Source of the DNA: Gemmatimonadota bacterium
GTDB lineage: Bacteria; Gemmatimonadota; Gemmatimonadetes; Longimicrobiales; Gaopeijiaceae
Length of the DNA: 64,000 nucleotides
NCBI GenBank assembly: GCA_022823365.1
Contig: JAJDXG010000056.1
Span: 62,001-126,000 of the forward strand
Direction: 5' to 3'
Of this stretch, positions 3,304-55,586 are shown piece after piece. The notes under the pieces are model-generated. The model had not been told where the DNA came from. It made no database searches and worked only from the letters and a program-made list of their open reading frames with translations. The translations under genes and the position numbers were made by a program. Every line of letters starts with the position of its first letter. The stretch's first letter is position 1.

Positions 3304-3423
3304 GCGAGGCTGTCTCTCACTGTTCTGGAGGCTGTTGTCCGGATTGGATCCTACCCGCACTCACAAATGTCGCCAACAACATCACACTCGGCTCCGGTCG
3401 CCGTCGACCGCCCGCGTACCTCC

Positions 3424-7061: not shown

Positions 7062-7344
7062 AATCCGGGCTGACGCACCGAGGTCAGCGACTCGGGTGGG
7101 GCAGGTACGTGAGGGGATTTGGCAGGGTCGCCGTCCGGCATGGCGTGTTCGGAAGCGGTTTCCGGGGACACACTGGGCAGGGAGGTTGCCTGTGACGCAA
7201 TCCATTGTTCGATCGACACCCACAAAAAACCCGACAGCAAACCCAAGACGTTCTAATCCGACCCCGATATTGTCGTATCGGCGCTTCGAGAGCGGGCGCA
7301 CCTTTGCGGTGGCGCCCGTTTTTCGTTGGTTCAAGGAGGCGATC
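7062..7344 (+). promoter_or_regulatory. Long 5' leader of the TonB receptor gene, possible attenuator
   Basis: If the promoter at 7028-7055 is used, the mRNA has about 280 untranslated bases ending in a GC-rich hairpin with a U-tract (7293-7323) and then the ribosome binding site AAGGAGG (7333-7339) and ATG 7345. An intrinsic terminator placed directly before a ribosome binding site is the arrangement of a riboswitch or attenuator. I could not match the leader to a known riboswitch class, and no short leader peptide stands out. Confidence 0.35.
7293..7323 (+). terminator. Terminator-like hairpin upstream of the TonB receptor gene
   Basis: CGGGCGC (7293-7299) pairs perfectly with GCGCCCG (7312-7318), with a possible inner ACC/GGT extension, and TTTTT follows at 7319-7323. 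This is a small but good intrinsic terminator shape. It ends only about 10 bases before the Shine-Dalgarno sequence of the next gene, so it would either stop read-through or act as a regulated attenuator. Confidence 0.5.
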
Positions 7345-10410: not shown

Positions 10411-10467
10411 AAGGCCAGGGGCCGCCGGTATGCAAAGAGACGCCAAACTTGTCCAATCGGAGTTCTC

Positions 10468-13400: not shown

Positions 13401-14508
13401 GGGTACGCTGGACCCGCCGTCCAGGGTCTTCACCACCGCGTCGGCCGACACCGTTGCGGACCGGGTACAGCCCACCGTGTGGTGGCTCACGAGTTCCTCC
13501 GGATATGTGGGCGGCAACGAATACGGAGAGTACGCGATCGTCTGGAACGCGGACGCCTGGGGCGCCGGCGCGCCCTTCCGGCTTCCGGATGCCGCGATCG
13601 AGGCCACCGTGGCCGCGTCCCTGTCGGGACGTCCGGCGGCCTCCACTTCGAGCACGGGCGAGGACGTCCTGGCAGCCGTGCAGGAGGTCAATCCGGACGT
13701 CGAATCCCTGGAGTCGTACGCGCTTCCGTTCTCGGTGCGCAACAACACCTACGGTCGCGACGTGCAGATTGCGGTGATCGACCACCAGGAATCGGTGCTC
13801 GTCGGACAGGCGGTCGACACGGCCCGGGTGGAGGTTCCGGCCGGCGTGTGGGTGCCTGGCGACCAGATCTACTTCGTAGAGACCGTGACCCGGGAGGTGA
13901 CCGACGACCAGGGCAACACGGTCCTCGACGCGGGCGGGCAGCCCGCGACGGAAACGGCCACGGTCGTGACCTTCGACGTGACCCTCGGCTGCGACGCCCC
14001 GCGTCCCTCCTGCGATCCGACCACCGGAGGGTCGACCGAGTCCGGCTACATCCCGGTGACCGAGCAGGTGACGCTGACGGTCCCGTGGCTGGTCCCGCTT
14101 CAGTCGGGCGACGAGGTGGTGGTGGACGTGCAGAGGGCGATCACGGCGGCGGAGGCCGCGGCGACGGGTGCGGTTTCCCTCGACGACGTACACGTGGTGC
14201 CCAACCCGTACTTGTATGCGAGCGCGTTCGAGCGCGCGACCGACGCGCGGGTTCTGAAGTTCACGAACCTTCCCCAGGAAGGGACCATCCGCATCTTCGA
14301 CGTGGCGGGACGATTCATCCAGGAGATCGTCTATGGTCCCGAGGATCTCCAGGGGATTGATGCCTACTGTGGCGCCGGAGATTGCGGGGGAGACTTGAAC
14401 TGGGACATGCAGACCCGCGAGCGGACCAACCTGGGAGCGGGACTGTACATTTTCGTTCTCGAATCCGGCGGCCAGAAGAAGATGGGCAAGTTCGTCGTCA
14501 TTCGCTGA
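10468..14508 (+). CDS. Very large secreted protein with type IX-like C-terminal sorting domain
   Basis: A 1346-residue exported protein of unknown function. It begins with a signal peptide ending near GEARAQ (about residue 30). The body is rich in Gly, Asp, Tyr and Trp with beta-rich, fibronectin-like segments and paired cysteines, but I recognise no enzyme domain. The last hundred residues, from about 1242, read VHVVPNPYLYAS, then TIRIFDVAGRFIQEI, WDMQT and GLYIFVLESGGQKKMGKFVVIR. That pattern is the Por/type IX type A sorting domain (FlgD-like Ig fold), which in Bacteroidota directs export and surface attachment. It lies between a TonB receptor and a PorV-family barrel, which in type IX systems is the sorting-domain acceptor. 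Confidence 0.8.
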   Translation: MKKLLTHRAGLLIAGLFVLPLGTPGEARAQEDVTVIDAGGVGNDLLVPTRPNLFQLRAFGDEGAAGVRTNGSNTWCLQNIQGFSSRFNFGCRTGWYVRQVNGFYTSAIFDMGMKWGAPASDLPDVIDPATSGLGGGGFTVNMTTLIIGGAVQGGGDKLWASDRSPVDLLNLAAKTTEDATCTNHTARRDGFMFTGFQLTPTSDCETTHPASGWKGSHPIPAESYLALQASAPEFGAMYDAMSPNDYDPFAFWRVPEEMQATEKFLGDWQTYGELSDWYRNALERYGTVIPGGAGSPNYAGWPLGLTQFYDGFYFGLPTVGNVMYFQSIIVNESEKVYGVGMTYDSVYIGMNVDPLLQGQGDAHYFDPVRSAMLWKETGSRCADAIDPPGSGCNRTGDDDWANGAAGAGIVFLKTPIGDARYKLFSDPSSDFYNPAHPRAGDTIMFQHQRQCGFGGCIPRTWSRSQRAHFGHFASIGEYTLDGETPGDLSDGAYHRIFRPEAWPERTGVYNKYVPGEGEAGAPTWDWNHDGQPDTIYADACGSRGCVALWADTLPSGYTNSYGNIADVAVGPVHMAPGDTVPFVVALVGAADSTSMESALDNAIGFYQQMYLGPETAPPPVISAVDVVGGQAASTGEIDGNEISLFFDDAPEEWVDPYLANLDVSADIARNYWLADSVAARSTNNVAAIHIFKSCDGGSTWTQDGDCDGDPVFDETSKWSNFGWQPYETFEAEDDGTLPNVFEDESLIPGVTYTYSIVTETRGARFNVVRGTHVDSLLAEEVVFAPELIGAVSASGTNPNVAVVYAPLNLAAGASRAELNEVSRSGNSTVPVELSVVGTSPVSGQYRIVFGDKLVVNQVDNLDDTGTPTSSQTTVAAQTVRTVTGMEGEPKEVVIAAVDFNRSGTVTLSGLDELPVDSAMQSSMQRTTVFEGGFGMVVAAGSTPLLASTTLEGDEATPGAFFSREDFPFFTVSVDAGEGGTLDPPSRVFTTASADTVADRVQPTVWWLTSSSGYVGGNEYGEYAIVWNADAWGAGAPFRLPDAAIEATVAASLSGRPAASTSSTGEDVLAAVQEVNPDVESLESYALPFSVRNNTYGRDVQIAVIDHQESVLVGQAVDTARVEVPAGVWVPGDQIYFVETVTREVTDDQGNTVLDAGGQPATETATVVTFDVTLGCDAPRPSCDPTTGGSTESGYIPVTEQVTLTVPWLVPLQSGDEVVVDVQRAITAAEAAATGAVSLDDVHVVPNPYLYASAFERATDARVLKFTNLPQEGTIRIFDVAGRFIQEIVYGPEDLQGIDAYCGAGDCGGDLNWDMQTRERTNLGAGLYIFVLESGGQKKMGKFVVIR

Positions 14509-14532
14509 GCCTGACGCCAAGGAGATAGATCA

Positions 14533-15648
14533 ATGAACCGTGCACTGCTGCTAGCGCTCACGCTCGTGGCGACGGCGGAGATGCTTGAGGCTCAGGAAAC
14601 GCTGACCTCGACGCCGGAACAAATCGTGACCCGCGTCGGAACCCGGGGCGCCGCATTTCTCGCGGTGGGCGTTGGCGCGCGCGGCCAGGCGCTGGGAGGC
14701 GCCTTCGGAGCGGCGGCGGACGACGTCACGTCGCTCTACTGGAACACCGCGGCCATGTCGCGCATCGACGGCTTTTCCGCCGGGATGACCACGGCGCGGC
14801 TCTTCGACGAACTCGACATCCAGCACACCTTCGTGGGCGTGGTGATGCCGTTCGGGTTTACCCGCATCGGCGTGAGCGTGAACACCCTCGACTCCGGGGA
14901 AATGCCCTGGCAGAGCGAGTACTGGCCCAACGCCGGCTACGGGGGCGAGCAGGATCCGACCGCCGCGGCTTTCAGCTGGACGGGAACCGCGATCGGGCTG
15001 CACTTCGCGCAGCCCATCACCGACCGCCTCACGGTGGGCGTGGCGGGCAAGGTGGTCGAGGAAGGGATCACCAACGCGACGGCGAGCTACGTCGGCGTCG
15101 ACATGAGCACGGTGTTCCGCACCGGGCTCTACGGCGTCACCCTCGGGGCGTCGCTCACCAACCTCGGGACTTCGGGCCGATTCGAGGGCAACCTGCTTGA
15201 CAACCGGGTCAACACTTCGTTCTCCGAGTCCCAGATCGACGATTTCATCCGGGTGGTGGAACTGTCCGCGGCGACCGACCATCTCGAACTCCCCACGTCG
15301 TTCCGCTTCAGCGTGATGCTGGACCTGATCGGGGGCGCCGATGCGATCGTCTCTCCGGACGCCGACCAGTCGCTCCGCCTGATGGCCGACATCAACGATC
15401 CCGTCGACGCGCCCCAGGAAACCGCGCTCGGCCTCGAGTACGGCTTCAGGGGACTGGCGTTCGTGCGGGCCGGCAAGCGCTTCGCGAACGAAGACCAGAT
15501 CGACAACGGGCTCATGCACGCGGCCGCCGCTGGCGGAGGCCTGCGGCTCCCGGTCGGGGAACTGGGCACGCTGAGCGTGGACTACGCCTACACGTCGATG
15601 GAGCAGCTGGAGAACATCCAGGTCTTCAGCTTCCAGCTGCAGTTCTGA
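14533..15648 (+). CDS. PorV/PorQ-family outer-membrane protein
   Basis: Predicted beta-barrel of 371 residues. The signal peptide ends near residue 21 (EMLEAQ). The diagnostic region follows around residues 45-75: GARGQALGGAFGAAADDVTS and LYWNTAAM, the hallmark of PorV/PorQ barrels. The protein ends VFSFQLQF with the aromatic C-terminus of outer-membrane barrels. In Bacteroidota PorV shuttles type IX cargo by binding the sorting domain. Here the gene sits 24 bases after a protein carrying such a domain, with a good ribosome binding site (AAGGAG). Whether it acts in secretion or as a transport pore cannot be told. Confidence 0.85.
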   Translation: MNRALLLALTLVATAEMLEAQETLTSTPEQIVTRVGTRGAAFLAVGVGARGQALGGAFGAAADDVTSLYWNTAAMSRIDGFSAGMTTARLFDELDIQHTFVGVVMPFGFTRIGVSVNTLDSGEMPWQSEYWPNAGYGGEQDPTAAAFSWTGTAIGLHFAQPITDRLTVGVAGKVVEEGITNATASYVGVDMSTVFRTGLYGVTLGASLTNLGTSGRFEGNLLDNRVNTSFSESQIDDFIRVVELSAATDHLELPTSFRFSVMLDLIGGADAIVSPDADQSLRLMADINDPVDAPQETALGLEYGFRGLAFVRAGKRFANEDQIDNGLMHAAAAGGGLRLPVGELGTLSVDYAYTSMEQLENIQVFSFQLQF

Positions 15649-15716
15649 TGCGGCTCGGTTTCGGAGAGGGAGGCCGGGCCGTGCTACCCCGTGGCACAAC
15701 GGGAGGAAATAGACTG

Positions 15717-16424
15717 ATGAGAGTACTGAACCGGTTGGCGCTGGCCGGGCTGGTGATGGCGCTGCCCTCGGCCGTACACGCCCAGTCCGAACAGGGCGCC
15801 TGGAGCGTCGAGGTATCTGCGGGAACCCAGATGTACGCCCCGTCGAGTTCGCTCATGAACAGCCCCATGCTCGCGCTGGAGGCGTTGTATCAGCTCACCC
15901 CGCGCATTGCGCTGGGGCCTGCGATTCAGTTCCACCGCGCCGACACCGACGGCAGCTTCTACGTGGCCGCCATCGACTTCGGTGCCGACAGCACCCGCAT
16001 CTACGAGGTAGGCCAGACGCTGAGCGCGCTCCACTACGGCTTGAACGCGCACATCAGCGTCATGCCGGGAAGCTCGCTGGATCCATATGTCGTCCTGGGC
16101 GGGGGCGGAGCCACGCTTTACCTGGATACGCAGGCCAACGACGACTTCCGGCGCGTGACCCATCAGATGGTGCTGGGGGGCGCGGGGGTGCGCTACGCGG
16201 TGACGGAGGCCGCCGGGATCCAGGTGGACGTGCGCGACGTCATCTACCGGGACTTCGACCGCGATGTCCTCAACCCGGTCGAGGAGCGACTCCGCAACTG
16301 CAAGAGCGACGGGACCTGCCGGTTCCCTGATGCGGAACGCACTGACCTCCCGGACAAACAGGACATGATCCACAACATCCGCCTGTCGATCGGGTTGACG
16401 TACGTCCCCGGACTCAACCGCTAG
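15717..16424 (+). CDS. Small outer-membrane beta-barrel protein, function unknown
   Basis: A 235-residue exported protein with signal peptide MRVLNRLALAGLVMALPSAVHAQ. The remainder alternates hydrophobic and polar residues in the manner of an OmpA/OmpX-like eight-stranded barrel (LDPYVVLGGGGATLYL, MVLGGAGVRYAVTEAAGIQVDVRDVIY). Two cysteines occur in a periplasmic or surface loop (NCKSDGTC). ATG 15717 is chosen because GGGAGGA precedes it and a signal peptide follows; the longer open frame from 15648 has neither. Fourth gene of the surface operon; its role there is unknown. Confidence 0.75.
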   Translation: MRVLNRLALAGLVMALPSAVHAQSEQGAWSVEVSAGTQMYAPSSSLMNSPMLALEALYQLTPRIALGPAIQFHRADTDGSFYVAAIDFGADSTRIYEVGQTLSALHYGLNAHISVMPGSSLDPYVVLGGGGATLYLDTQANDDFRRVTHQMVLGGAGVRYAVTEAAGIQVDVRDVIYRDFDRDVLNPVEERLRNCKSDGTCRFPDAERTDLPDKQDMIHNIRLSIGLTYVPGLNR

Positions 16425-16442
16425 CGGGCAGGAGGCGATCAA

Positions 16443-18218
16443 ATGAAAGCAGCACGCAAGCGAATCCGGCTGCACGCGGTGGGTGTCGCCCTGTGCGGCG
16501 CGCTCCTCGTGGCCGCCTGCGAGACCGACAACATTACCGACCTGACCGACGAGCGGCCGGTGCTCAAGATGACGATCGCGCCGGGGGATGCGGTGTTCCC
16601 CTCGGGCTCGGTCGCGCTCTCGAAGGCGGTCGTCTCCGGGTTCGATTTCTCGGTTCCGGACGGGTTCGACCGGGGGACGGGGGCGGGGGGGTTCTTCGGC
16701 CCCGTCGCCACCCCCATAGGTACCGCTCCAGCGGTGGACCTGGGGGGTTCGGTGCGTAATTCCTCCCAGGATCCCCGGCTGCCGGCCCTGCGAGAGGGCT
16801 CTGCGGCGTTGGGTACCCACTTCGGCCTGTTCGAACTGACCCTCTTTCTTCAGAACGGAGCTCCGGTAGGTTACTGGGATCTCTTCGGCGAGGTGCAGGG
16901 GCTCGAGCCCTCTACGGCCTATACGGTCGTGCTGGCCCGCATGACGCTGCAGGTGAACGGCGAGTTGGACCAGCATCAGGTTCTGACCGGGAACCCGGTC
17001 GACGAGCCGGACGAGTTGTCCTTCGCATCCGGCGAAACCGTCATCTACGGAGACGTCGCCTGCGATTTCGACCTGCAGGCTGGAATCACCCCGATCAGGG
17101 CCGAGATGAACCCGGTTGGCCTTGGTGTCGTCGAGACGAACGGGGCGGGCACCGGCGCTTTCGACTGCGTGCTGAGGGCCGTTCCCGGTGACATGTGGCC
17201 CGGACGAGCGGAGGGGGCCAACCTGTCGACGGCGGACGATTTCACGGCGGCGAATACGCCTTTCGGTTCCAACGAGACCGGCGCCATGGTTGGCCCCGGC
17301 CAGTTCAACTACCTGCTCCTGTACGAGGGAGCTCCGAGCGGGGGCGCCCTTCCGGCCGGCAGCCCCACCGTGCGCATGCAGTTGGGTCCCGACGTCGACG
17401 CCGACGGAAACGTCATCAACAACGCCATGGCGCCCTTCCCGGCCGGTGTAGTGCCCAACGCACCGGAGCTCTCCGGGGGAGCCAACTCCTTTGCCGCGCC
17501 GGGCCAGATCGACGTCACGCTGGAAGGCTTCTCGCCGCTCTCCGGCGGTTCGTACCAGCTTTGGCTGTACGACGCGGGCTCGGGTTCCTACTCCGCCGCG
17601 GACGCCACGTTCTACCCCGCGATGGACATGGACATGATGATGATGGGTTCCACCTTCTCGCCATCGTCGTCGGAGGACGTGTACCACGCCAAGATGGAAG
17701 TGTCGATGGATCAGAACTTCGGCGAGTTCACACACGTGGCGGTGAGCGCCGAGTCCGGGCAGGCGAGTTCGCCGACCGGGGGGCCCTTCCTGTTCCAGGA
17801 GTACCTGACCTCCGACAACCTCATGCAGCAGGGGGCCATGACGTTCGGCCACCTGGGTTCGGATGGGGAAATAGACCCCTTCTTCGGTGGTGGCTCGGGC
17901 TCCGGGTCGTTCTACGAGAGCTCGCTGCTGGTAGAACTCAACCGGCTGCCGGCGCCACCTCCGGGAATGCACTACCAGAGCTACCTCGCCGCCGTCTCGC
18001 CCACGGGCGTCGGCACTTCGTCCCGTGGCAACACGATCACGCTGGATGCCCGCGGAAACGGGATGGATCGGCTGGAAGCGGCGCAGGTCGGCGATTTCGC
18101 GTCTTTCACCCACTATCTGGTGGTGCTGGAGCCGGACGGCATCACGTCCATTACCGAGATGTGGGTGCAGCAGAGCGACGACTACAGGAACAAGTTCAAG
18201 GAGTTCTTCGGAGGCTGA
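16443..18218 (+). CDS. Lipoprotein with repeated beta-sandwich segments, function unknown
   Basis: Exported lipoprotein of 591 residues: a basic N-terminus, hydrophobic stretch and lipobox LLVAAC with acylated Cys26. At least three segments look alike: VQGLEPSTAYTVVLARM, LEGFSPLSGGSYQLWLYDAG and LNRLPAPPPGMHYQSYLAA. They resemble the beta-sandwich of the anti-sigma-K (RskA) C-terminal domain, which is common in extracytoplasmic proteins; I infer this by eye only. A methionine and aspartate cluster (MDMDMMMMG, near residues 396-404) could bind metal. AGGAGG precedes the ATG. It is the last gene of the operon and is followed by a strong terminator. Confidence 0.75.
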   Translation: MKAARKRIRLHAVGVALCGALLVAACETDNITDLTDERPVLKMTIAPGDAVFPSGSVALSKAVVSGFDFSVPDGFDRGTGAGGFFGPVATPIGTAPAVDLGGSVRNSSQDPRLPALREGSAALGTHFGLFELTLFLQNGAPVGYWDLFGEVQGLEPSTAYTVVLARMTLQVNGELDQHQVLTGNPVDEPDELSFASGETVIYGDVACDFDLQAGITPIRAEMNPVGLGVVETNGAGTGAFDCVLRAVPGDMWPGRAEGANLSTADDFTAANTPFGSNETGAMVGPGQFNYLLLYEGAPSGGALPAGSPTVRMQLGPDVDADGNVINNAMAPFPAGVVPNAPELSGGANSFAAPGQIDVTLEGFSPLSGGSYQLWLYDAGSGSYSAADATFYPAMDMDMMMMGSTFSPSSSEDVYHAKMEVSMDQNFGEFTHVAVSAESGQASSPTGGPFLFQEYLTSDNLMQQGAMTFGHLGSDGEIDPFFGGGSGSGSFYESSLLVELNRLPAPPPGMHYQSYLAAVSPTGVGTSSRGNTITLDARGNGMDRLEAAQVGDFASFTHYLVVLEPDGITSITEMWVQQSDDYRNKFKEFFGG

Positions 18219-45174: not shown

Positions 45175-47853
45175 TCAGAAGTCGTAACGCACCCTGACGA
45201 GGGCCAGTCTCCCCAGCTCCGGAGCGCCCACGAATTCCTGATGCAGGTTGTCCAGGGCGTTGTAGACGGTGAACTCAACGCGCGTATTTGTTTGAAATGG
45301 AAGCAGATAGCCAGCTGTGACGTCCACGACCTGGTAGGCGTCCACGCGCCCGCTGAAGACGCCCGAACTCATCTCGAAGGCGTCGGAGAGGCGCCAGCGC
45401 CCGTCGAGGGTCAAGCCCGCGGCGCGGTCGGTGTAGGCGAAGCCGAGAGAGCCCTTGTGGCTGGGAGCGTTGAGGGCGAGGTCGTCCGGGCCGGGGCAGT
45501 GGCCGTCGTCGTCGAAGTCGAAGCAATCCGTGTTCTGGAACGAATACCCCGCGGTCAGGCTCACCCGGTCGGACACCAGGTACTGCGCGGAGAAGTCGGC
45601 TCCCCAGTAGCTCGCCGATCCGAAGTTGCGGCTGCTGAAGACCATGTCGTGCACGTCGAACCCGTCCGGCGTGACCACTCCCAGCGGCACGGACACCAGC
45701 CCCGCGGCCAGTTCGGTCATCTGTCCGGGCGTGACCAGCCCCGCCTGAACCAGCGGGCCGAGCCGGCTCTGCAGGAACGCGCCGGTCGAGGCCGGGTCCA
45801 GGAAGACGTTGGGCGACTCCACCTTCAGCGCGCCGACGAAGTTCTCGACGTTGGCGTGGTACACGTCGGCGGCGAGCCTCACGCGGTCCTGAATCAGCCC
45901 CTTGTACCCGGCCTCGATCGTATTGAAGGTGGTCGCGACGAGGGGAGGAACCGCTCTTGGTCCCGGATCGAGGGGGAAGATGTCGCCGCCCTCGGCGCCG
46001 AGCGCGTTCGGATCGAACCGCCGGAAGACCGTGCCCAACGCCGGGTCGCCGGGGCGATTCCCTGGCCCCATCAGGAGCGGGTGAAGCATCTCCGGCGCGA
46101 ACTGCGTCATCAGCGCGTCCCAGAACGGCGCGGCGTTGGCAGGGAGCTGGCCCGGCATGAAGGGCGATCGCATGCAGTAGTCCATCAACCCGCCGGCGCA
46201 GCGGTCCGAGAAGCTCATGCCGCCGCCCGGGACGCCGAAGGCGCGCAGGGTATAGCCGATGCCCGGGACGATCGGAAGCCTCCCCGAAGCGATGTCGAGG
46301 AAGAGCGCCGACGTGGAGGGGTTCGCGAAGGCGCGGTTGTAGGTCAGGCGCAGGTTGTGGCCTTCGGCGGGACGGAAGACGAGCGCGGCCCGCGGCGAGA
46401 TGTTCAAGCCGGTCAGGCGGTTGTGATCGTCGACCCGAAACGCGGTCACCAGGTCGAATCGGTCCCCGAGCCGCGTCTCGGAGTGCAGGTAGGCGCCCGC
46501 CTCCACGAGGACGTCGTCGTCTTCGTTACGCCCGTAGATGGTGCCCTGGGAGCGGGGCTCGATGCGCTGCCAGTCGATCCCGTAGGTGAAGCTCTGGCGG
46601 GTGCCGAGATCCAGGCCGTGCTGAAGCTGGGCGGCCATGGTGCGCGAGCGGTCGACGATGAGATCCCCGCTGCGCAGCAGGTAGCTGTTGTGGCCCGAAT
46701 GCGTCTGATTGAGGAAGAACTGCCCGAAGAAGCGTCCCTTCAGCAGCCGCGCCTGGGCGTAGCGGTACTGCCAGTCATGGGTCTGAGAGGAGCCGATGGA
46801 AGTGAGGTTGATGCTGCTCAGCGAGTTGTTGAGTCCGCCCGAGACGATGAACTCGCCGTCGTCCGCGAAGCGATAGTCCGCCCGCACGTCGCCGAAGAAG
46901 CGCTCGTTGAGCGGATTGCGGATCCCGATGCGCGGATGATCGGGCTCTGCCGCGCGTGCCTGAACCTCCCACGGGTCCTCGTACTCCCAGTCTTCGCCAC
47001 GGAGATACTGGCCCGATACCTTGAACCCGAACCGGTCGGAGACCGCGTGCGCGCTGCGCAGCAGGAACTGCACGACCGACCTCTCGCCGCCGCCGAGCGT
47101 GACGGTCGTCCCCGGCCTGTCGATCGGCGACCAGGTGATGATGTGCATCACGCCCTCGGCCGCGTTGGGCCCGTAGAGCGCCGCGCCCGGGCCGCGCGCC
47201 AGCTCGATGCGCTCGATATCCATGTCGGTGGTCGGGATCATGTTGATGGCGTTGATCCTGAGCGCCGGGATGCGCGCATAGCGGTTGTCGACGATGCTGA
47301 GAAGACGTCCGGACGCCACGTTGTTGAAGCCGCGCACGACCGCGTAGCTCTGGGTGAGACCGGTGCTGGCGAGGTCGACTCCCGGGAGCGTCCTGACGTG
47401 GTCTGCGGGGGTTCGCGCGATGATGCGGGAGATCTGCTGGTTGGTCAGGGTGGAGACGGAGGCCGGGGCGTCGAGTTCCTTTTCCTCCCGGCGCGACACG
47501 GTCACCACCAGTTGGTTGAGCACCAGCGCGCGCGACCGGAGCTGGATGGCGACCGAGGCCGTTGCTCCGGCCTCCACGGTCACACCGTCCGTGCGCGAGG
47601 ACTCGTGCCCGATGAGGGTGACCAGAAGGGAGTGAGTGCCGGCCGGCACGGAGACGCGGAATTCGCCGGCCGCGTCGGTCACCGAGGAGGTGGCCGTCTC
47701 ACCCAGAACCTCCACGGCGGCGGATGCCAGCGGCGCCCCGGTCTCCATGTCCGTCACTCGGCCGGCGATGGCGCCCTCCTGGGCTTCCAGTTGAACCGCC
47801 GTGAGGATGAGCGCGAACAGGGCACTCATCGGGAGTCTGCGCCGGGCTTGCAT
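45175..47853 (-). CDS. TonB-dependent outer-membrane receptor
   Basis: Outer-membrane transporter of 892 residues. The signal peptide (SALFALILTAVQLEAQ) is followed by a carboxypeptidase-regulatory-like domain (about 25-108, IAGRVTDMETGAPLASAAVEVLG), a plug domain with VSRREEKELDAPASVSTLT and RIELARGPGAALYGPNAAEGVMHIIT, and the barrel, which ends VRVRYDF. The plug resembles siderophore or vitamin receptors rather than SusC. An internal segment includes several Cys in a long extracellular loop (DRCAGGLMDYC). It faces the DUF1592 gene divergently across 256 bases, so the two may be regulated together. Substrate unknown. Confidence 0.92.
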   Translation of the reverse strand: MQARRRLPMSALFALILTAVQLEAQEGAIAGRVTDMETGAPLASAAVEVLGETATSSVTDAAGEFRVSVPAGTHSLLVTLIGHESSRTDGVTVEAGATASVAIQLRSRALVLNQLVVTVSRREEKELDAPASVSTLTNQQISRIIARTPADHVRTLPGVDLASTGLTQSYAVVRGFNNVASGRLLSIVDNRYARIPALRINAINMIPTTDMDIERIELARGPGAALYGPNAAEGVMHIITWSPIDRPGTTVTLGGGERSVVQFLLRSAHAVSDRFGFKVSGQYLRGEDWEYEDPWEVQARAAEPDHPRIGIRNPLNERFFGDVRADYRFADDGEFIVSGGLNNSLSSINLTSIGSSQTHDWQYRYAQARLLKGRFFGQFFLNQTHSGHNSYLLRSGDLIVDRSRTMAAQLQHGLDLGTRQSFTYGIDWQRIEPRSQGTIYGRNEDDDVLVEAGAYLHSETRLGDRFDLVTAFRVDDHNRLTGLNISPRAALVFRPAEGHNLRLTYNRAFANPSTSALFLDIASGRLPIVPGIGYTLRAFGVPGGGMSFSDRCAGGLMDYCMRSPFMPGQLPANAAPFWDALMTQFAPEMLHPLLMGPGNRPGDPALGTVFRRFDPNALGAEGGDIFPLDPGPRAVPPLVATTFNTIEAGYKGLIQDRVRLAADVYHANVENFVGALKVESPNVFLDPASTGAFLQSRLGPLVQAGLVTPGQMTELAAGLVSVPLGVVTPDGFDVHDMVFSSRNFGSASYWGADFSAQYLVSDRVSLTAGYSFQNTDCFDFDDDGHCPGPDDLALNAPSHKGSLGFAYTDRAAGLTLDGRWRLSDAFEMSSGVFSGRVDAYQVVDVTAGYLLPFQTNTRVEFTVYNALDNLHQEFVGAPELGRLALVRVRYDF

Positions 47854-48109
47854 CGGTCCTCGTCACCTCCGTCTGCGCGTCGGAATCATCGTGCAAAGAG
47901 ACGGGCTGCCGGAGACCCCGGCAAGCTGCCTCGCGGCCTCGCGCGGACGGACCTCGCAGGGTTCGTCAGCCGCGGTCTCCCCCCGGGATTGTGCGCCACG
48001 ACCGTCAGCGAGTGACGCGGCACCGGCGCTCTCAACCTTTTCCCGCTGGCAGGCTTCGTTAAGTTAGAGGGTTGCTCGGGGCGAGTGCCCGCTTCAGGGA
48101 GGAGACGTG

Positions 48110-50578
48110 ATGAGGTTTCTGGCCGCCGCGGTGGCGCTGGGGGGTGTGCTGCTGGTCGCGGAAGGAGCGCGCGACGCGGCGTCCGCCGGCTTACCCGACG
48201 TGACATATGGGTCTGCCCTGGATGCATATCCCGCATACGGCGACGCCCATCCGGTTCTCCCTGCCGACCTGGGCTCCACCCCGGTCGAAGACGTCGTCGA
48301 GCGCTACTGCACCCGCTGCCACAGCGAGCGCCGCATGCGCGGCAACCTGTCGCTGGAGGGATTCGACGTCACCCGCGCCGACGAGAACGCGGAGGTTGCC
48401 GAGCGCATGATCCGCAAGCTGCGCGCGGGCATGATGCCGCCGCCCGGCTCGCGCCGCCCCACCGAGGACACCCTCACCGCGCTCGCGCAGTACCTGGAGG
48501 ACGTGGTGGACGAGGCGGCGGCCGCCCGCCCGTATGCGGGCACCCGCCCCTTCCAGCGCCTCAACCGGGCCGAGTACGCCCGCGTCATCCACGACCTGCT
48601 CGGCCTCACGGTCGACCCGGAGGACTGGCTGCCGCCCGACCGCATCAGCGAGAGCTTCGACAACAACGCCGAGGCCCAGACCCTCACCCCCACCCTGATG
48701 GACGCCTACCTGGCCGCCGCCAGCGACATCGCGCGCCGCGCCATCGGCGACCGCGACGCGGCAACCACGTCGGTTACCTACGGCAACCCGCCCTCCGTGT
48801 CCCAGCACGAATGGGAGCGGGTCGAAGGGGCGCCCTTCGGCACCCGCGGAGGCGTGAGCGTCCTGCATTCCTTCCCCGCGGACGGGGAATACATCTTCTC
48901 GATGAGCTTCATGTCCGGATGGGGTGAGCGCGACCACGACATCGACATCTCCGTCAACGGGGAGCGGGTGGCGCTGCTGCGCTACGGGGGCGACATCGAC
49001 TTCCAGGGGCGCAAGGGCTTCCCGGTGCGCACCGACCCCATCCCCCTGCGCGCGGGTGAGCACCGCCTCACGGCCGCCTTCATCCGCCGGATGGACGGCC
49101 CCTACGAGGACCTGATCCGCCCCAACGACTGGTCGCTGACCGGCACCGAGACCAGCTACGGGACCACTTCGCTCCCGCACATGATGAGCCTGACGGTCGA
49201 AGGGCCGCACAACACCACGGGCGTGTCCGACTTCGACGCCCGGCGGCGGGTTTTCTCCTGCCGGCCCACGGCGGCCGCCGAGGAGCGGCCCTGCGCCCGC
49301 GAGATCGTTTCCCGGCTCGCCGCGGAAGCCTACGGCCGCGACGTGAACGACGGCGAGGTGAGCGATCTGCTCGTCTTCTACGAGATGGGTTCCGAGGACG
49401 GGGGCTTCGAAGCCGGCGTGCGGACGGCGCTCGAGGCGATCCTCTCGAGTCCGCATTTCCTCTTCCGCATGGAGCGGGAGCCGGAGGATGTGGCGCCCGG
49501 AGAGATCTATCCGCTCGCAGACGAAGACCTTGCGGCGCGCCTGTCCTTCTTCCTGTGGGGTACCGGTCCGGACCCCGAGCTGGTGGCCGCGGCCCGCGAT
49601 GGGGCGCTGTCAGATCCGGTCCGGCTCGAGGGCCAGGCGCGCCGGCTGCTGGCCGATCCCCGTTCGGAGGCGCTGGCCACCCGTTTCGCTTCCCTGTGGC
49701 TGCGCCTGCAGGACGTGGAGCTGGTCAGCCCGGACGCGTTCCGCTTCCCCAACTACAGCCGCCAGTTCGCCGATGCAATGCGGCGCGAGAGCGAGCTCTT
49801 CTTCCACAACCTGATCCGCGAGGACCGCAGCCTGCTGGAGCTCTACAGCGCCGACTACACCTTCGTGAACGAGCGGCTGGCGCGTCATTACGGCATCCAG
49901 GGCGTGCAGGGCGAGGCCTTCCGTCGCGTGGGCTATCCCGACGATCGCCGGCGCGGCATCCTGGGCCACGGCAGCATGCTCGTCCAGACCTCGCTCGGAA
50001 ACCGCACGTCGCCGGTGCTGCGCGGCTTGTGGGTGATGGAGGTGCTGCTGGGTACGCCGCCTCCGCCGCCTCCCCCCGGCATCCCCGACCTCGAGGAGAC
50101 CGCGAGCGCGCGTGACGGCAAAGCCCTGACCACGCGCGAGCGGCTGGAGGCCCACCGCGACAATCCGGACTGCGCCTCCTGTCACGAACTCATCGACCCC
50201 ATCGGGCTGGCGCTCGACAACTTCGACGTGACCGGCCAGTGGCGCATCCGCGAAGAGGGCACGCCGCTCGACACCAGGAGCACCTACTACGACGGCACCG
50301 AGATCGAGACCCCGGCGGATCTTTCTCGCGTCCTGCTCAAGCGCCCCATTCCGCTGGTGCGCCAGTTCACGCAGAGCCTGATGGCGTATGCGCTCGGACG
50401 GGGCATCGGGTATCAGGACCAGCCTGCCGTCCGCGCCATCGCGCGCGAGGCCGGGCGGAACGACTATCGCATGTCGTCCTTCATCGTCGGAGTGGTGATG
50501 AGCGACGCGTTCCGCATGAAGCAGGCACTGGCGCTCGCCGATGGCGAGAACAGCGGGGCCCGGGATACATTCAACTGA
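48110..50578 (+). CDS. Exported DUF1587/1595/1592/1588/1585 protein with heme-type motifs
   Basis: An 822-residue exported protein of the kind abundant in planctomycetes, acidobacteria and gemmatimonads. After the signal peptide (FLAAAVALGGVLLVAEGARDA) the first CxxCH, CTRCH at residues 67-71, sits in a cytochrome-c-like part. Then come DUF1587 (RLNRAEYARVIHDLLGL), a carbohydrate-binding-like beta region, DUF1595 (REIVSRLAAEAYGR), DUF1592 (RLSFFLWGTGPD), DUF1588 with the second CASCH at 687-691 and PIGLALDNFD, and DUF1585 at the end. The start at ATG 48110 has GGGAGGAG upstream. The biochemical role of the family is unknown; it may bind heme and polysaccharide. Confidence 0.88.
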   Translation: MRFLAAAVALGGVLLVAEGARDAASAGLPDVTYGSALDAYPAYGDAHPVLPADLGSTPVEDVVERYCTRCHSERRMRGNLSLEGFDVTRADENAEVAERMIRKLRAGMMPPPGSRRPTEDTLTALAQYLEDVVDEAAAARPYAGTRPFQRLNRAEYARVIHDLLGLTVDPEDWLPPDRISESFDNNAEAQTLTPTLMDAYLAAASDIARRAIGDRDAATTSVTYGNPPSVSQHEWERVEGAPFGTRGGVSVLHSFPADGEYIFSMSFMSGWGERDHDIDISVNGERVALLRYGGDIDFQGRKGFPVRTDPIPLRAGEHRLTAAFIRRMDGPYEDLIRPNDWSLTGTETSYGTTSLPHMMSLTVEGPHNTTGVSDFDARRRVFSCRPTAAAEERPCAREIVSRLAAEAYGRDVNDGEVSDLLVFYEMGSEDGGFEAGVRTALEAILSSPHFLFRMEREPEDVAPGEIYPLADEDLAARLSFFLWGTGPDPELVAAARDGALSDPVRLEGQARRLLADPRSEALATRFASLWLRLQDVELVSPDAFRFPNYSRQFADAMRRESELFFHNLIREDRSLLELYSADYTFVNERLARHYGIQGVQGEAFRRVGYPDDRRRGILGHGSMLVQTSLGNRTSPVLRGLWVMEVLLGTPPPPPPPGIPDLEETASARDGKALTTRERLEAHRDNPDCASCHELIDPIGLALDNFDVTGQWRIREEGTPLDTRSTYYDGTEIETPADLSRVLLKRPIPLVRQFTQSLMAYALGRGIGYQDQPAVRAIAREAGRNDYRMSSFIVGVVMSDAFRMKQALALADGENSGARDTFN

Positions 50579-50656
50579 TATGACCGCGAACTGCGCGCTC
50601 GTCCGTGGCCACCACGGGCGGACCCGCGTCCATCATCCTTCATCCTGGATCGTGGC

Positions 50657-52054
50657 ATGCATGTTCTGACCAGCAAGGCTCTTCCGCGACGCACCTTCCT
50701 GCGCGGGGCGGGCGCCACCCTCTCGCTTCCGCTGCTCGACGCCATGATTCCCGCCGGTATTGCGGGCGGGCGCGCGGCCGGCGAGCCGACACGCCTGATC
50801 TGCATCGAGGAGGTGCACGGCGTCGCCGGCTGCAACGAGTGGGGCGCCAGGCAGCATCTCTTCGCCCCCGTCACCCAGGGGCGGGACTTCGAGCTCAGCG
50901 ACATCAACGTGCTGAAGGGGCTCGAGCGGTGGCGTGACTACATGACCATCATCAGCAACACCGACGTGCGCATGGCGGAGGCCTTCGCGCCGCCGGAGGT
51001 GGGCGGCGACCACTTCCGCTCCAGCGCGGTGTTCCTGACGCAGTCCCACCCCAAGCAGACCCAGGGGTCCGACATCTACTGCGGCACCTCGCTGGATCAG
51101 TTGCACGCCCAGCGCTTCGGGCAGGACACGGTGCTGCCTTCGCTCCAGCTTTCCATCGAGCCCACGGACGCGGGGGGCGGCTGCGACTACAACTACTCGT
51201 GCTCGTACATGGACTCGATCAGTTGGGCATCGCCCGACCTGCCGCTGCCGATGATCCGCAGCCCGCGCGCCGCGTTCGACATGCTCTTCGGGGCCGGCGG
51301 GAGCGCCGACGAGCGGGCACGGCGGCGGCGGACCCACGGGAGCATCCTTGACTGGGTCGCCGGTGAGGTGGCCGACCTGCGGCGCCAGTTGGGCGCGGTC
51401 GACCTGCAGCGGGTGGACCGCTACCTGGATAGCGTCCGCGAGATCGAGCGGCGCATCGAGCGGGTGGAGGAGCGCAACACCAGCGGGGCTCCGCGGGAGC
51501 TGCCCGGCGCTCCCCCGGGCGTGCCCGACTCCTTTGAGGAGCACATGCGCCTCTTCTTCGACCTGCAGGTGCTGGCCTTCGAGACGGACGCCACGCGCGT
51601 GGCCGCGCTCAAAATGGGACGGGACGCGTCCAACAGGAGGTTCCCGGAGAGCGGTTCGGACCGGGCCTTCCATCCCGCCTCGCACCACGGCGGCAACGAG
51701 GAGGCCATCCTCGAGTTCAACACGATCTGCCAGTGGCGCACGGGACAGCTGGCGTACTTCCTGGAGCGGCTGCAGGAGACGATGGACGGGGAGATGAGCC
51801 TGCTGGACCGGTCCATGGTCATCTGGGGCTCGCCGATGGGCGACGCCAACCTGCACAACCACCGGCGGTGCCCGCTGGTGATCATGGGCGGGGCCAACGG
51901 CCAGCTCGAGGGCAACCTGCACCTCAAGGCCCCGGACGGCACGCCCATGGCCAACGTGTTCACCACGCTGCTGCACAAGCTCGGCCACGAGGATCTGATG
52001 ACGTTCGGGGATGCAACCGGCGAGTTCTCCCTGACCGTGCCGGTGACCTCATGA
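50657..52054 (+). CDS. DUF1552 protein, Tat-exported
   Basis: 465 residues. A twin-arginine signal with Arg11-Arg12 (PRRTFLRGAGATLSLPLLDA) sends the folded protein to the periplasm. The rest matches the DUF1552 pattern: WGARQHLFAPV, NTDVRMAEAFAPPEVGGDHFRSS, LQLSIEPTDAGGGCDYNYSCSYM and FHPASHHGGN. The end, MVIWGSPMGDANLHNHRRCPLVIMGG, recalls alkaline-phosphatase-like proteins of the DUF1501 kind. It follows the DUF1592 gene by 78 bases, the usual pairing of these families, and overlaps the ankyrin gene by ATGA. Confidence 0.9.
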   Translation: MHVLTSKALPRRTFLRGAGATLSLPLLDAMIPAGIAGGRAAGEPTRLICIEEVHGVAGCNEWGARQHLFAPVTQGRDFELSDINVLKGLERWRDYMTIISNTDVRMAEAFAPPEVGGDHFRSSAVFLTQSHPKQTQGSDIYCGTSLDQLHAQRFGQDTVLPSLQLSIEPTDAGGGCDYNYSCSYMDSISWASPDLPLPMIRSPRAAFDMLFGAGGSADERARRRRTHGSILDWVAGEVADLRRQLGAVDLQRVDRYLDSVREIERRIERVEERNTSGAPRELPGAPPGVPDSFEEHMRLFFDLQVLAFETDATRVAALKMGRDASNRRFPESGSDRAFHPASHHGGNEEAILEFNTICQWRTGQLAYFLERLQETMDGEMSLLDRSMVIWGSPMGDANLHNHRRCPLVIMGGANGQLEGNLHLKAPDGTPMANVFTTLLHKLGHEDLMTFGDATGEFSLTVPVTS

Positions 52055-54273
52055 AGTCGGCGCGGCCGATGGGAGGCCCGCGCGGACGGGCGCGCTTCCT
52101 GGGGATGGCGATCCTGCCGCTGCTTCTGCTCGGCGGCGGCTGGTCCGACGCGCCGGTGGCCGACGCGGCGGCACAGGGCGATCTGGAGGCCGTGCGTCGC
52201 CTGCTGCGCGAGGGCGCGGACGTCAATGCGCCCCAGGGCGACGGCATGACCGCGCTCCACTGGGCGGCCGAGCGCGGCGACGCCGAGCTCGCGGACGTGT
52301 TGCTCTACGCCGGCGCGCGCGTGGACGCGGGCACCCGCATCGGGCACTACACGCCCCTCCACCTTGCATCCCGGCGCGCGGGCGCCACCGTGGTCGAGGT
52401 GCTTCTGGACGCGGGCAGCGACCCCAACGCGAGCACGACCAATTCGGGCGCGACGCCGCTCCACCTGGCGGCGGCCACCGGCGATCCCGGAGTGGTCGCG
52501 GTGCTGGTCGAGGCCGGCGCGAACGTGAACGGGCGTGAGGGCGCATGGGGCCAGACCCCCCTCATCTTCGCCGCCGCCAGCAACCGGGTCGCGGCCATGG
52601 AGGTGCTGCTGGGGGCCGGCGCCGATCTGTCGCTCGCGGCCTGGTCGGTGGACGTGGCGGAGCGGGAGCGGGCGGATGCCGCGGCCGACCGCCGTCTGAA
52701 CGAGTTCCTGGCCGACTTCAAGGAGAAGGAGGGCGGCGGCCCGGAGTGGCAGCCCACCCCCAGCCAGGTGCAGGCGGCCATCGAGGCATCGCGCGAAATC
52801 CAGCGCAGGTGGCCCGACGTGCCCGACCCGGCGAACGACGGGCGCACCATGGCCAACCAGGAGGGCCAGATCGAGGCGGAGGAAGACGGGGAGGGCGATG
52901 AATCCGGGACGGAGGCTGACGCGGCTTCCGAAGCGGGGGATGAAGCCGCCGAGGCAGAGGAAGACTCCGGCGAGCCCGGGGAAGGCGGGGAGGCCGGCGA
53001 GGCATCGGAGGAAGTCGAAAGCGACGAGGACGAATCCGCTGACGACGAGGACGGGGACCCCCGTCCGGACGAAGAACCCCGTCCCATGTCCTACGCCCAG
53101 ATGGTTGGCGCCTGGGGCGGACTGACGCCCCTCCTGCACGCGATCCGGCAGGGCCACGTGGAGGCGACCCTGACGCTGCTCGAAGCCGGAGCGGAGATCA
53201 ACCAGGTCTCCGAGGGCGACCAGACCTCGCCGCTGCTAATGGCGTCCGTGAACGGCCAGTTCGACCTCGCCCTGACCCTGCTAGAGCGCGGCGCGGACCC
53301 CAACCTGGCGAGCCAGGCGGGCACGACCCCGCTCTTCGCCGTACTGGAGCGGCAGTGGGCGCCCAGGGCATCGTACGCGCACCCCACCGAGCATCTGCAG
53401 CAGGATGCAACCCATCTGGAGGTGCTGGAGGCCCTGCTGGACGCCGGTGCCGACCCCAACGTGCGCCTGAAGGCCCACCTCTGGTTCATGGAGTACACCT
53501 TCGGAGTGCTCCGCGGCAGCGGCATCAACCTGCAGGGCGCGACGCCCTTCTGGAGAGCCGCCTACGCGCTCGACGTCGACGCGATGCGGCTCCTGAAGGA
53601 GCACGGCGCCGACCCGAACATCCCGACCATGAAGCCGCCCCAGCGCCGCCGCCGCCGTCCCCCGCCGCCCCCGGAGCCGACGCTGGCGGAAGAAGCGGTC
53701 GCCGAGGCTGGAGAGGGTGAGGCCGAGGAAGGTGAGGAGGCGGTGGTTGAGGGTGAGGAGGCTGGAGCCGAGGCCCAGGGCTCCGGCCTTGCCAACGCCG
53801 AGGGCGAGACGGACGAAGAGGAGGAAGAACCCGCGCAGCAGGGCTACGGACGGGGCGACGACGACGATCTCTCCGGCGTGCCGCCCGTCCCCACCGGCGG
53901 GCCCGCCATCTATCCGATCCACGCTGCTTCCGGCGTGGGTTACGGTCAGTCTTTCGCCGGAAACGCGCACCGTTATGTCCCCGACAACTGGCTCGCGGCG
54001 GTCAGGTTCCTGATGGAAGAAGCCAACGCGGACGTCAACGTGCGCGACGCCAACGCCTACACGGCTCTCCATCACGCCGCGTCCCGGGGCGACGACGAGC
54101 TGGTGCTCTATCTGGTGGAGCACGGTGCCGACGTCACGGTGCTGAGCCGAAGGGGCCAGACCACCGCCGACATGGCCAATGGGCCGGTGCAGCGCGTGCA
54201 GCCGTTCCCGTCCACCATCGCTCTGCTGGAGCGCCTGGGGTCGAAGAACAACAACAACTGCGTGTCCTGCTAG
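52051..54273 (+). CDS. Exported ankyrin-repeat protein with acidic inserts
   Basis: 740 residues with a signal-like hydrophobic N-terminus (MAILPLLLLGGGWSDAPVADAAA). Ankyrin repeats fill residues about 38-205 (TALHWAAERGDAELADVLL, TPLHLASRRAG, TPLHLAAATGDPGVVAVL) and resume in about 350-535 and 640-720. They are separated by a long acidic Glu/Asp/Gly stretch (about 270-346) and by a Pro/Arg cluster followed by a second Glu-rich stretch (about 530-606). The protein ends NNNNCVSC. The ATG overlaps the DUF1552 stop (ATGA), so its synthesis is coupled. Ankyrin repeats bind proteins; the likely partners are the two preceding products. Confidence 0.85.
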   Translation: MKSARPMGGPRGRARFLGMAILPLLLLGGGWSDAPVADAAAQGDLEAVRRLLREGADVNAPQGDGMTALHWAAERGDAELADVLLYAGARVDAGTRIGHYTPLHLASRRAGATVVEVLLDAGSDPNASTTNSGATPLHLAAATGDPGVVAVLVEAGANVNGREGAWGQTPLIFAAASNRVAAMEVLLGAGADLSLAAWSVDVAERERADAAADRRLNEFLADFKEKEGGGPEWQPTPSQVQAAIEASREIQRRWPDVPDPANDGRTMANQEGQIEAEEDGEGDESGTEADAASEAGDEAAEAEEDSGEPGEGGEAGEASEEVESDEDESADDEDGDPRPDEEPRPMSYAQMVGAWGGLTPLLHAIRQGHVEATLTLLEAGAEINQVSEGDQTSPLLMASVNGQFDLALTLLERGADPNLASQAGTTPLFAVLERQWAPRASYAHPTEHLQQDATHLEVLEALLDAGADPNVRLKAHLWFMEYTFGVLRGSGINLQGATPFWRAAYALDVDAMRLLKEHGADPNIPTMKPPQRRRRRPPPPPEPTLAEEAVAEAGEGEAEEGEEAVVEGEEAGAEAQGSGLANAEGETDEEEEEPAQQGYGRGDDDDLSGVPPVPTGGPAIYPIHAASGVGYGQSFAGNAHRYVPDNWLAAVRFLMEEANADVNVRDANAYTALHHAASRGDDELVLYLVEHGADVTVLSRRGQTTADMANGPVQRVQPFPSTIALLERLGSKNNNNCVSC

Positions 54274-54356: not shown

Positions 54357-55586
54357 GTGGTGAGGTCCTCCGGACAGCGCCGCAAGGCCGCGATGATCTT
54401 CATCCTCATCACGGTCTTTATCGACATGCTGGGGATCGGCATCATCATCCCCATCCTCCCGGAGCTGATCCGGGAATTCGTGGGAGGAAGCTCCGCGCTG
54501 GCCGGGCGCTGGTACGGCGTCCTCGCCGCCACCTACGCGGTCACCCAGTTTGTGTTCGCACCGCTTCTTGGGGCGCTGTCGGACCGGGTGGGACGCCGGC
54601 CGGTCATCCTGATCTCTCTCTTCGGGCTCGGGATCGATTACCTCATCATGGGCTTCGCGCCAACGATCGGCTGGCTCTTCGCCGGGCGCCTGATCGCGGG
54701 CGTGATGGGAGCGAGCGCCACTACCGCCAACGCCTACATCGCCGATGTGTCGAAGCCCGAGAACCGGGCGCGCAACTTCGGGCTCGTCGGCGTCGCCTTC
54801 GGACTCGGCTTCATCTTCGGTCCCGCCATAGGCGGTCTGCTCGGAAGCATCGACCTGCGGCTGCCGTTCTTCGCCTCTGCAGGGCTTGCGCTTCTGAACT
54901 GGCTCTACGGCTTCTTCGTCCTGCCGGAATCACTGCCGCCGGAGAAGCGCGATGTCTTCCGCTGGCGCAAGGCGAACCCGGTGGGCAGCCTGCATGTGCT
55001 GAAGTCGTATCCGCTGGTGGCGGGCCTGACCGCGGCGTTCGTCTTCGTCATCCTCGCGCAGCGCGGACTCGAGACCGTCTGGGTTCTCTACACCGGCCAC
55101 AAGTTCGGATGGGATGAGCGCGCGAACGGGCTGTCACTGGCCCTCGTGGGGATCATGTCGGCGATCGTGCAGGGGGGGCTGGTCCAACCCGTGATCAAGC
55201 GTATCGGCGAGCGCCGGGCCGTCCTTTACGGGCTCGTCTGGGCGGTGGTCGCGTTTCTTGGCTACGGGCTGGCCACCGCCGGATGGATGCTGCTCGTGGT
55301 CATCGTCGTCGGCTCGATCTCGGGCGTCGCCGGCCCCGCGATCCAGAGCCTGGTGGCGGGCTCCGTCCCTCTCGAGGACCAGGGCAAGGTCCAGGGCGGC
55401 ATCCAGTCACTCATGAGCCTCACCAGCATCGCGGCGCCTCTGATCTTCACGGCGGGGCTGTTCAGCTACTTCACCTCCGCGAGCGCGCCGGTCGAGCTGC
55501 CCGGGGCGCCGTTCCTGCTGGGCGCCCTCATGTACGGGTTGGCGTTCTGGTCGGTGCTGAGACTGTTCCGGAGGATGCCGGGGTAG
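54357..55586 (+). CDS. Major facilitator superfamily transporter, Tet-like
   Basis: Twelve-helix inner-membrane exporter of 409 residues. The start of helix 1 (IFILITVFIDMLGIGIIIPILPEL) is typical of the tetracycline-efflux branch. Motif A occurs as GALSDRVGRRPVI in loop 2-3 and motif C-like GVAFGLGFIFGPAIGGLLG in helix 5. GTG 54357 gives a short basic N-terminus; ATG 54393 with AAGG upstream is the alternative. Similarity to Tet proteins does not by itself show drug resistance. Confidence 0.85.
   Translation: MVRSSGQRRKAAMIFILITVFIDMLGIGIIIPILPELIREFVGGSSALAGRWYGVLAATYAVTQFVFAPLLGALSDRVGRRPVILISLFGLGIDYLIMGFAPTIGWLFAGRLIAGVMGASATTANAYIADVSKPENRARNFGLVGVAFGLGFIFGPAIGGLLGSIDLRLPFFASAGLALLNWLYGFFVLPESLPPEKRDVFRWRKANPVGSLHVLKSYPLVAGLTAAFVFVILAQRGLETVWVLYTGHKFGWDERANGLSLALVGIMSAIVQGGLVQPVIKRIGERRAVLYGLVWAVVAFLGYGLATAGWMLLVVIVVGSISGVAGPAIQSLVAGSVPLEDQGKVQGGIQSLMSLTSIAAPLIFTAGLFSYFTSASAPVELPGAPFLLGALMYGLAFWSVLRLFRRMPG

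Follow-up and report, generated by a model that had tools for sequence, protein, structure and literature searches.

Organisation of the locus

The DNA analysed, referred to here as the window, is a stretch of 64,000 nucleotides (C8:62001-126000) of a 3.8 Mb genome in 63 contigs. Among named records, this genome is most closely related to Gemmatimonadota MAGs, the BD2-11 clade included. Positions 48110-54273 of the window contain three genes, all on the plus strand, which encode a PSD/X132-type protein, an HXXSHH protein, and an ankyrin protein, in this order. Open reading frames and Pfam matches bear out an earlier annotation of this DNA (the first-pass annotation), which had described three exported proteins in order. 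The genes and features of the locus are listed below, with the basis of each assignment in brackets.

48110..50578, plus strand: PSD/X132-type exported protein with two CxxCH motifs, 822 aa from ATG (ORF, Pfam, model)
50657..52054, plus strand: HXXSHH (DUF1552) protein, alkaline-phosphatase-superfamily fold by prediction (Pfam, model)
52051..54273, plus strand: exported ankyrin-repeat protein with acidic linkers, ATGA-coupled to HXXSHH (ORF, Pfam)
48308..48322, plus strand: first CxxCH (CTRCH), in the N-terminal cytochrome c domain (motif, Pfam)
48755..49222, plus strand: CBM35/36/6-like beta-sandwich between PSD3 and PSD5 (predicted model)
50171..50185, plus strand: second CxxCH (CASCH), in PSCyt3/DUF1588 (motif, Pfam)
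50687..50704, plus strand: Tat motif RRTFLR of HXXSHH (sequence)
51671..51688, plus strand: HxxSHH motif, HPASHH, residues 339-344 (conservation)
54259..54270, plus strand: C-terminal CxxC (CVSC) of the ankyrin protein, stop codon directly after (sequence, homologues)
54357..55586, plus strand: MFS transporter downstream of the triad (Pfam, ortholog neighbourhoods)
45175..47853, minus strand: divergent TonB-dependent receptor, not SusC-like (Pfam, ortholog neighbourhoods)

Gene 1 likely starts at the ATG at 48110, upstream of which lies AGGAG (48100-48104). The ORF caller places the start at a GTG at 48107, and GTG numbering equals ATG numbering plus one. Counted from ATG 48110, the CxxCH motifs occupy residues 67-71 and 688-692. 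Both motifs and the first position had been given correctly in the first-pass annotation, while the second had been placed at 687-691. The ATGA said to couple the ankyrin gene to its predecessor was found as an overlap at 52051-52054. A longer ankyrin reading frame (51733-54273) overlaps gene 2 with its first approximately 141 codons. Scans for sigma-70 promoters and terminators gave no useful result.

Elsewhere in the window, at positions 7270-18218, a TonB receptor gene (1046 aa) precedes two genes whose products measure 1346 aa (10468-14508) and 591 aa (16443-18218). These two proteins have no Pfam match, and the region is possibly another uncharacterised surface operon.

The PSD/X132-type protein

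By Pfam, the number of PSD-type domains in gene 1 is exactly five, the same as the number of DUF domains counted earlier. They follow the order PSD3/DUF1587, PSD5/DUF1595, PSD4/DUF1592, PSCyt3/DUF1588, and PSD2/DUF1585, all above the cut-off, and are accompanied by an N-terminal cytochrome domain. The second CxxCH lies inside the PSCyt3 part (residues 689-693, GTG numbering) and is invariant. Exactly two CxxCH motifs are present in each of the 66 complete PSD4 homologues, and C68, C71, and H72 as well as C689, C692, and H693 (GTG numbering) are invariant in the PSD alignment A4. Genes for Ccm-type heme attachment are encoded in the genome. The conserved motifs suggest that the PSD protein carries two c-type hemes at its CxxCH sites.

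In silico modelling of the PSD protein resulted in a pLDDT of 79 and a pTM of 0.81. When the model was compared with known structures by VIA-align, CBM36, CBM35, and CBM6 were the top matches of residues 217-372 (GTG numbering), and the domain aligned with the C-terminal domain of the xylanase XynJ with a Z of 10.2 (104 residues, 2.5 Å). The model thus predicts a CBM35/36/6-like sandwich in gene 1, in line with the carbohydrate binding put forward in the first-pass annotation. Searched alone, residues 216-373 matched no Pfam family, CBM or other, at an E of 0.5. The helical PSD core outside residues 216-371, taken within the whole-protein model, gave no fold match in the PDB lists, and sequence searches including profiles found no solved homologue of gene 1, the best rows being at chance level. 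The alignments used for folding were shallow, with 51 rows in one and 56 rows in that of HXXSHH.

The HXXSHH protein

Gene 2 matches PF07586 with 275 bits (cut-off 30) over model positions 6-307 of 307. This match and the RRTFLR motif confirm the earlier description of a Tat-exported DUF1552 protein. R11 and R12 of the Tat motif are at least 97% conserved in 135 sequences. No solved homologue was found by PDB sequence search, including profiles, with the best rows again at chance level, and no viral relatives of HXXSHH were found.

An AlphaFold2 model from 56 sequences has a pLDDT of 71.7 and a pTM of 0.80; its low-confidence parts are residues 106-143 and 172-197, inside which several conserved residues lie. 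Comparison with the alkaline phosphatase superfamily by VIA-align gave a best Z of 15.2 over 261 residues at 3.8 Å. Foldseek retrieved the same superfamily with a best E of about 1e-3. Judging by the predicted model, HXXSHH would adopt an alkaline-phosphatase-superfamily fold. D147, R314, H339, H343, and H400 are identical in all 138 homologues, S342 is identical in 137 of the 138, and C176 and C182 are present in nearly all, while E51/H54 differ between HXXSHH subfamilies. A function as type I sulfatase was rejected, as the formylglycine motif CxPxR occurs in 0/138 homologues. The predicted resemblance to alkaline phosphatase is one of fold, and does not imply sulfatase or phosphatase activity.

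Amplification and distribution of the triad

The genome contains 12 HXXSHH genes and 11 PSD4 genes. Each of the 12 HXXSHH genes is followed by an ankyrin gene, and 12 of the 15 ankyrin proteins of the genome are triad members adjoining HXXSHH. At the HXXSHH copy on contig C25, a SusC-SusD pair is located upstream in place of PSD4. An ankyrin frame with two internal TGA stops, situated away from the triads (G000:C14:21419-22390), is probably a decayed gene. DUF1501, the family paired with PSCyt2/PSD1 in planctomycetes, is represented by one gene (G000:C51:82285-83559), compared with 12 for DUF1552.

Twelve HXXSHH genes are found in each of four sampled species of the genus, and two Vicinamibacterales genomes contain 40 and 43. 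When 84,980 species genomes were scanned with the HXXSHH alignment, at least 532 relatives were retrieved. Of these, the best 80 (loci L034-L113) were examined and come from Gemmatimonadota, Acidobacteriota, and Gammaproteobacteria records. The order PSD4-HXXSHH-ANK is kept across these 80 loci, except at contig edges and in L093, where a tandem pair of HXXSHH genes is followed by a single ankyrin gene (1281-5957). Four loci labelled Gammaproteobacteria (L065, L066, L097, and L111) are near-identical to copies in this genome, and the group assigned to these MAGs is probably incorrect. The Woeseia MAG loci L061 and L062 are distinct from this genome's copies. The occurrence of the triad in Gemmatimonadota, Acidobacteriota, and Woeseia MAGs agrees with the earlier statement that the families recur together in several phyla.

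Among 150 sampled Gemmatimonadota genomes, HXXSHH is present in 55, PSD4 in 56, and both in 55, with similar copy numbers. PSD4 accompanies HXXSHH in 55/55 genomes and occurs in 1/95 genomes without it (Fisher P about 1e-40, with relatedness ignored). HXXSHH was also detected in 18 of 119 sampled Acidobacteriota. Divergent HXXSHH copies, too, are usually adjoined by an ankyrin gene. In one Vicinamibacterales genome, 16 of 20 fetched stretches include an ankyrin gene, which is positioned upstream, downstream, or divergently, and in L152 lies beside a second HXXSHH. The majority of the divergent Gemmatimonadota HXXSHH copies adjoin an ankyrin gene as well.

The pairwise distances of the three proteins correlate with an r of 0.87-0.91 over 71 triads, and with an r of 0.50-0.75 among this genome's own copies. 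A correlation of this kind is expected if the triad is inherited jointly, and shared ancestry by itself contributes to it. The triad is a real, ordered, and amplified unit of exported proteins; the mechanism discussed below is a proposal.

The ankyrin protein and its cysteine tail

Gene 3 has a Sec-type signal at its start and ends with NNNNCVSC directly before the stop codon. A CxxC tail closes each of the 73 complete ankyrin partners in L034-L113; it is exactly C-terminal in 67 and followed by one residue in six. The residues before the tail are nearly always an asparagine-rich NN(x)x. This C-terminal cysteine tail of triad ankyrin proteins is previously unreported. The reading of the ankyrin end as a frameshifted or truncated CxxCH was rejected because the identical ending recurs in 73 homologues.

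In this genome, the tail is present in 9 of 11 complete ankyrin partners, and another partner is cut off by the contig end. The two tailless partners (L031 7360-9324 and L033 8886-10838) belong to a separate HXXSHH clade. Their C-terminal stretches contain two cysteines about 13 residues apart, which do not form a CxxC. The tail accompanies HXXSHH with E51/H54 in 89/89 cases and is absent in 18/18 others, which have EM, FM, FN, or YN. In a tree built from 95 HXXSHH rows, all five EM rows group in a single clade with a support of 99. This clade is nested among EH rows, and H54M and the loss of the tail are therefore best read as one joint event. As it reflects few evolutionary events, the pattern is suggestive of a link between the ankyrin tail and HXXSHH residue 54.

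Position 54 comes after the strand 46-52 of the HXXSHH model. A gapless extrapolation from the first aligned residues would locate it near the metal-binding Asp-Asp pair of sulfatases. The alkaline-phosphatase-type fold usually places metal ligands around the region that matches HXXSHH 51-54.

The ankyrin protein could also be an assembly factor that provides heme delivery or cysteine reduction for both partners, with its CxxC serving as a thiol-disulfide tool like that of CcmH. The spacing of the tail is that of a redox CxxC, and ankyrin proteins serving heme enzymes are known: the ankyrin-containing Cj1386 of Campylobacter jejuni, which would be the analogue, is described as trafficking heme to catalase (cited in PMC4491227). 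However, the genome has its own Ccm system. Furthermore, the tailless triads retain both CxxCH motifs of PSD4 and the C176/C182 pair of HXXSHH, which shows that these mature without the tail, and a requirement of the tail for the CxxCH sites was rejected for this reason. An assembly function is thus conceivable, if rather doubtful.

Neighbouring genes and possible substrates

Neighbour enrichment was computed from family searches of the genome. Seven of the 15 SusD genes are situated 10 kb or less from a triad (0.9 expected, P 1.3e-5), as do 12 of the 53 TonB plug domains (3.2 expected, P 6e-5); these P values are optimistic, as the 10 kb limit was picked after inspection and five copies are located on one contig. 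At a limit of 3 kb, the enrichment of SusD is weak (2/15, P 0.09). A TonB plug domain is found within 10 kb of 11 of the 12 triads, and a SusC-SusD pair within 10 kb of eight of the 12 copies; such a pair adjoins the copies at C8:139-149 kb and on C25. SusC-SusD lies between PSD4 and HXXSHH in the C8:139-149 kb copy (L033), and immediately upstream of HXXSHH in L032. The window copy has no adjoining SusC-SusD pair, and the nearest SusD on its contig is about 26 kb away. The clustering of SusC/SusD near other copies fits a polymer or oligomer as ligand, in keeping with the polymer handling suggested by the first-pass annotation.

The divergent TonB receptor, which that annotation had also reported, is a real gene. 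It is present at the ortholog L034 and absent at L035, L037, L038, L040, and others. Its absence beside near orthologs led to its rejection as a constant fourth component of the locus. The co-occurrence of the three families is borne out; that of the TonB receptor at this locus is not. An MFS gene is located downstream in many Gemmatimonadota orthologs of the window copy and is absent at other copies. In L040 (1890-7492), and likewise in L037, L038, and L045, a same-strand DUF5107-TPR protein, in place of the receptor, is encoded upstream of the ortholog. A DPPIV-type peptidase is also found upstream in L040, with a gap of 3 bases to PSD4.

The frequency of TonB plug domains near triads would also be consistent with the acquisition of iron or another metal, involving a surface heme reductase, a metal-binding cysteine tail, and TonB import. 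Both the cysteine tail and the histidine-rich HXXSHH could bind metal. However, most receptors adjoining triads are of the SusC-like type with a SusD partner, an arrangement indicative of organic ligands, and 12 to 43 copies per genome would be many for one metal. Metal acquisition is consequently a quite improbable function.

A scan of about 40 neighbouring proteins revealed no glycoside hydrolase, lyase, or other CAZyme. Peptidases of the S9, S15, and DPPIV-like types and two amidases are among the neighbours; together with the missing CAZymes, they would be compatible with activity on peptides, amides, or another non-carbohydrate polymer. S9 peptidases, however, are not enriched near triads (2/31 compared with 1.9 expected), and a peptide substrate inferred from them was rejected. 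The predicted CBM-like domain favours a sugar, although jelly-roll sandwiches bind other ligands too. A non-carbohydrate substrate is therefore considered unlikely.

The scanned neighbours likewise include no LPMO, which argues against the PSD protein being merely the electron donor of an LPMO encoded elsewhere. Such a role was first proposed for Cbp2D of Cellvibrio japonicus, whose X183 heme domain is reported to reduce LPMO slowly in vitro (PMC8981238). In later studies, the X183 domains of the two Teredinibacter proteins failed to drive LPMOs (PMC10916295), and a cbp2D or cbp2E mutant grew more poorly than an lpmo10B mutant (PMC12542752). As it also leaves HXXSHH and the ankyrin protein without explanation, this is a very unlikely role for the PSD protein.

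Proposed function

The likeliest role of the triad, tentatively, is that of a periplasmic or cell-surface redox or metalloenzyme system which processes a glycan-like polymer and in which the ankyrin protein acts as a docking partner; this is a plausible reading that falls somewhat short of an even chance. Against it stand the lack of glycoside hydrolases and lyases among the neighbours scanned and the periplasmic or cytoplasmic location predicted for related proteins (PMC5615132). The three genes would encode a single functional unit for export, duplicated repeatedly into paralogous triads. The PSD protein, carrying two c-type hemes, would bind a glycan-like polymer or oligomer via its CBM-like domain. 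HXXSHH would fold with its metal before Tat export, and its reaction would take place at an unusual site rich in histidines on the alkaline-phosphatase-type fold, while electrons would pass to or from the PSD hemes. The ankyrin protein would dock onto HXXSHH, with its cysteine tail reaching the region of residues 51-54. At many copies the products might be imported by SusC/SusD or other TonB receptors, and the many copies may serve different substrates.

A bolder and improbable version describes a three-chain extracytoplasmic metalloenzyme. Here, the ankyrin CxxC would enter the active-site region of HXXSHH and there provide, in trans, either ligands for the metal or a redox pair, and the enzyme would be coupled to a two-heme cytochrome that binds carbohydrate. 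If true, this would represent a new way to attack or sense polymers, present in 12-43 copies per genome.

As a whole, the earlier reading of the locus is partly supported. The 12-fold amplification, the ankyrin CxxC, the predicted fold of DUF1552, and X132 of Cbp2D as a published relative go beyond it. Uncultured environmental bacteria carry PSD/PSCyt cytochromes and their DUF1552 neighbours in large numbers, and published descriptions assign these proteins no known function. The three-part unit, the predicted fold, the co-varying tail, and the SusCD link provide testable hypotheses for this gene pair.

Comparison with known systems

In the available text of He et al. 2017 (PMC5615132), PSCyt/PSD proteins are reported to occur often with CBMs and beside unknown genes, and their function is called unknown. 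The planctomycete-specific PSCyt3 genes of Verrucomicrobia MAGs usually adjoin one unknown family; DUF1552 is named in the files or legends, and related proteins were predicted to be periplasmic or cytoplasmic (PMC5615132). These PSCyt3/PSD genes share the PSD domain set of gene 1, but the same text reports no ankyrin third gene for the Verrucomicrobia pairs. Literature text searches retrieved no paper naming both DUF1592 and DUF1552.

The predicted fold of HXXSHH resembles sulfatases, ENPPs, LtaS, YejM, and MCR/EptC with a Z of about 14-15 over approximately 250 residues. In contrast to this superfamily, to which identity is about 10%, HXXSHH lacks CxPxR and has a histidine-rich invariant set.

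Cj1386 and the triad ankyrin protein may be compared in that both are associated with a heme-type protein. The partner of Cj1386 is a catalase, and it has no HXXSHH or PSD partner; to our knowledge, it has no link to a C-terminal CxxC. No catalase or peroxidase gene was found beside the triad ankyrin, whose partners are PSD4 and HXXSHH.

Several triad copies resemble the Sus-like polysaccharide utilisation loci of Bacteroidota in being adjoined by SusC/SusD pairs. They differ from these loci in that the window copy has no nearby SusD and the neighbours scanned include no glycoside hydrolase.

A close parallel to gene 1 in domain composition is offered by X132 of Cbp2D, which opens with a DUF1587 stretch and has one CxxCH (PMC8981238, PMC10916295). 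X132 also occurs in Teredinibacter TERTU_2913/TERTU_3803 (PMC10916295), and a CBM2-bearing Cellvibrio relative was annotated as a DUF1592 protein (PMC6004670). The DUF set of gene 1 would correspond to that of X132, a link made through Pfam names in these papers (PMC8981238, PMC10916295, PMC6004670). Cbp2D additionally contains CBM2, X158, FN3, and X183, whereas gene 1 combines one N-terminal cytochrome domain with an inserted CBM-like sandwich and is partnered by HXXSHH and ankyrin genes. The Cbp2D and Teredinibacter literature, in its available portions, makes no mention of an ankyrin or DUF1552 partner of X132 proteins. Both cbp2D and cbp2E are indispensable when cells grow on insoluble cellulose, and a new mechanism that cuts the polymer directly has been put forward (PMC12542752). 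As Cbp2D is a multi-domain protein, this cellulose phenotype cannot be pinned on X132. Through their relation to Cbp2D, the triads could mark a widespread route of polymer turnover (PMC12542752).
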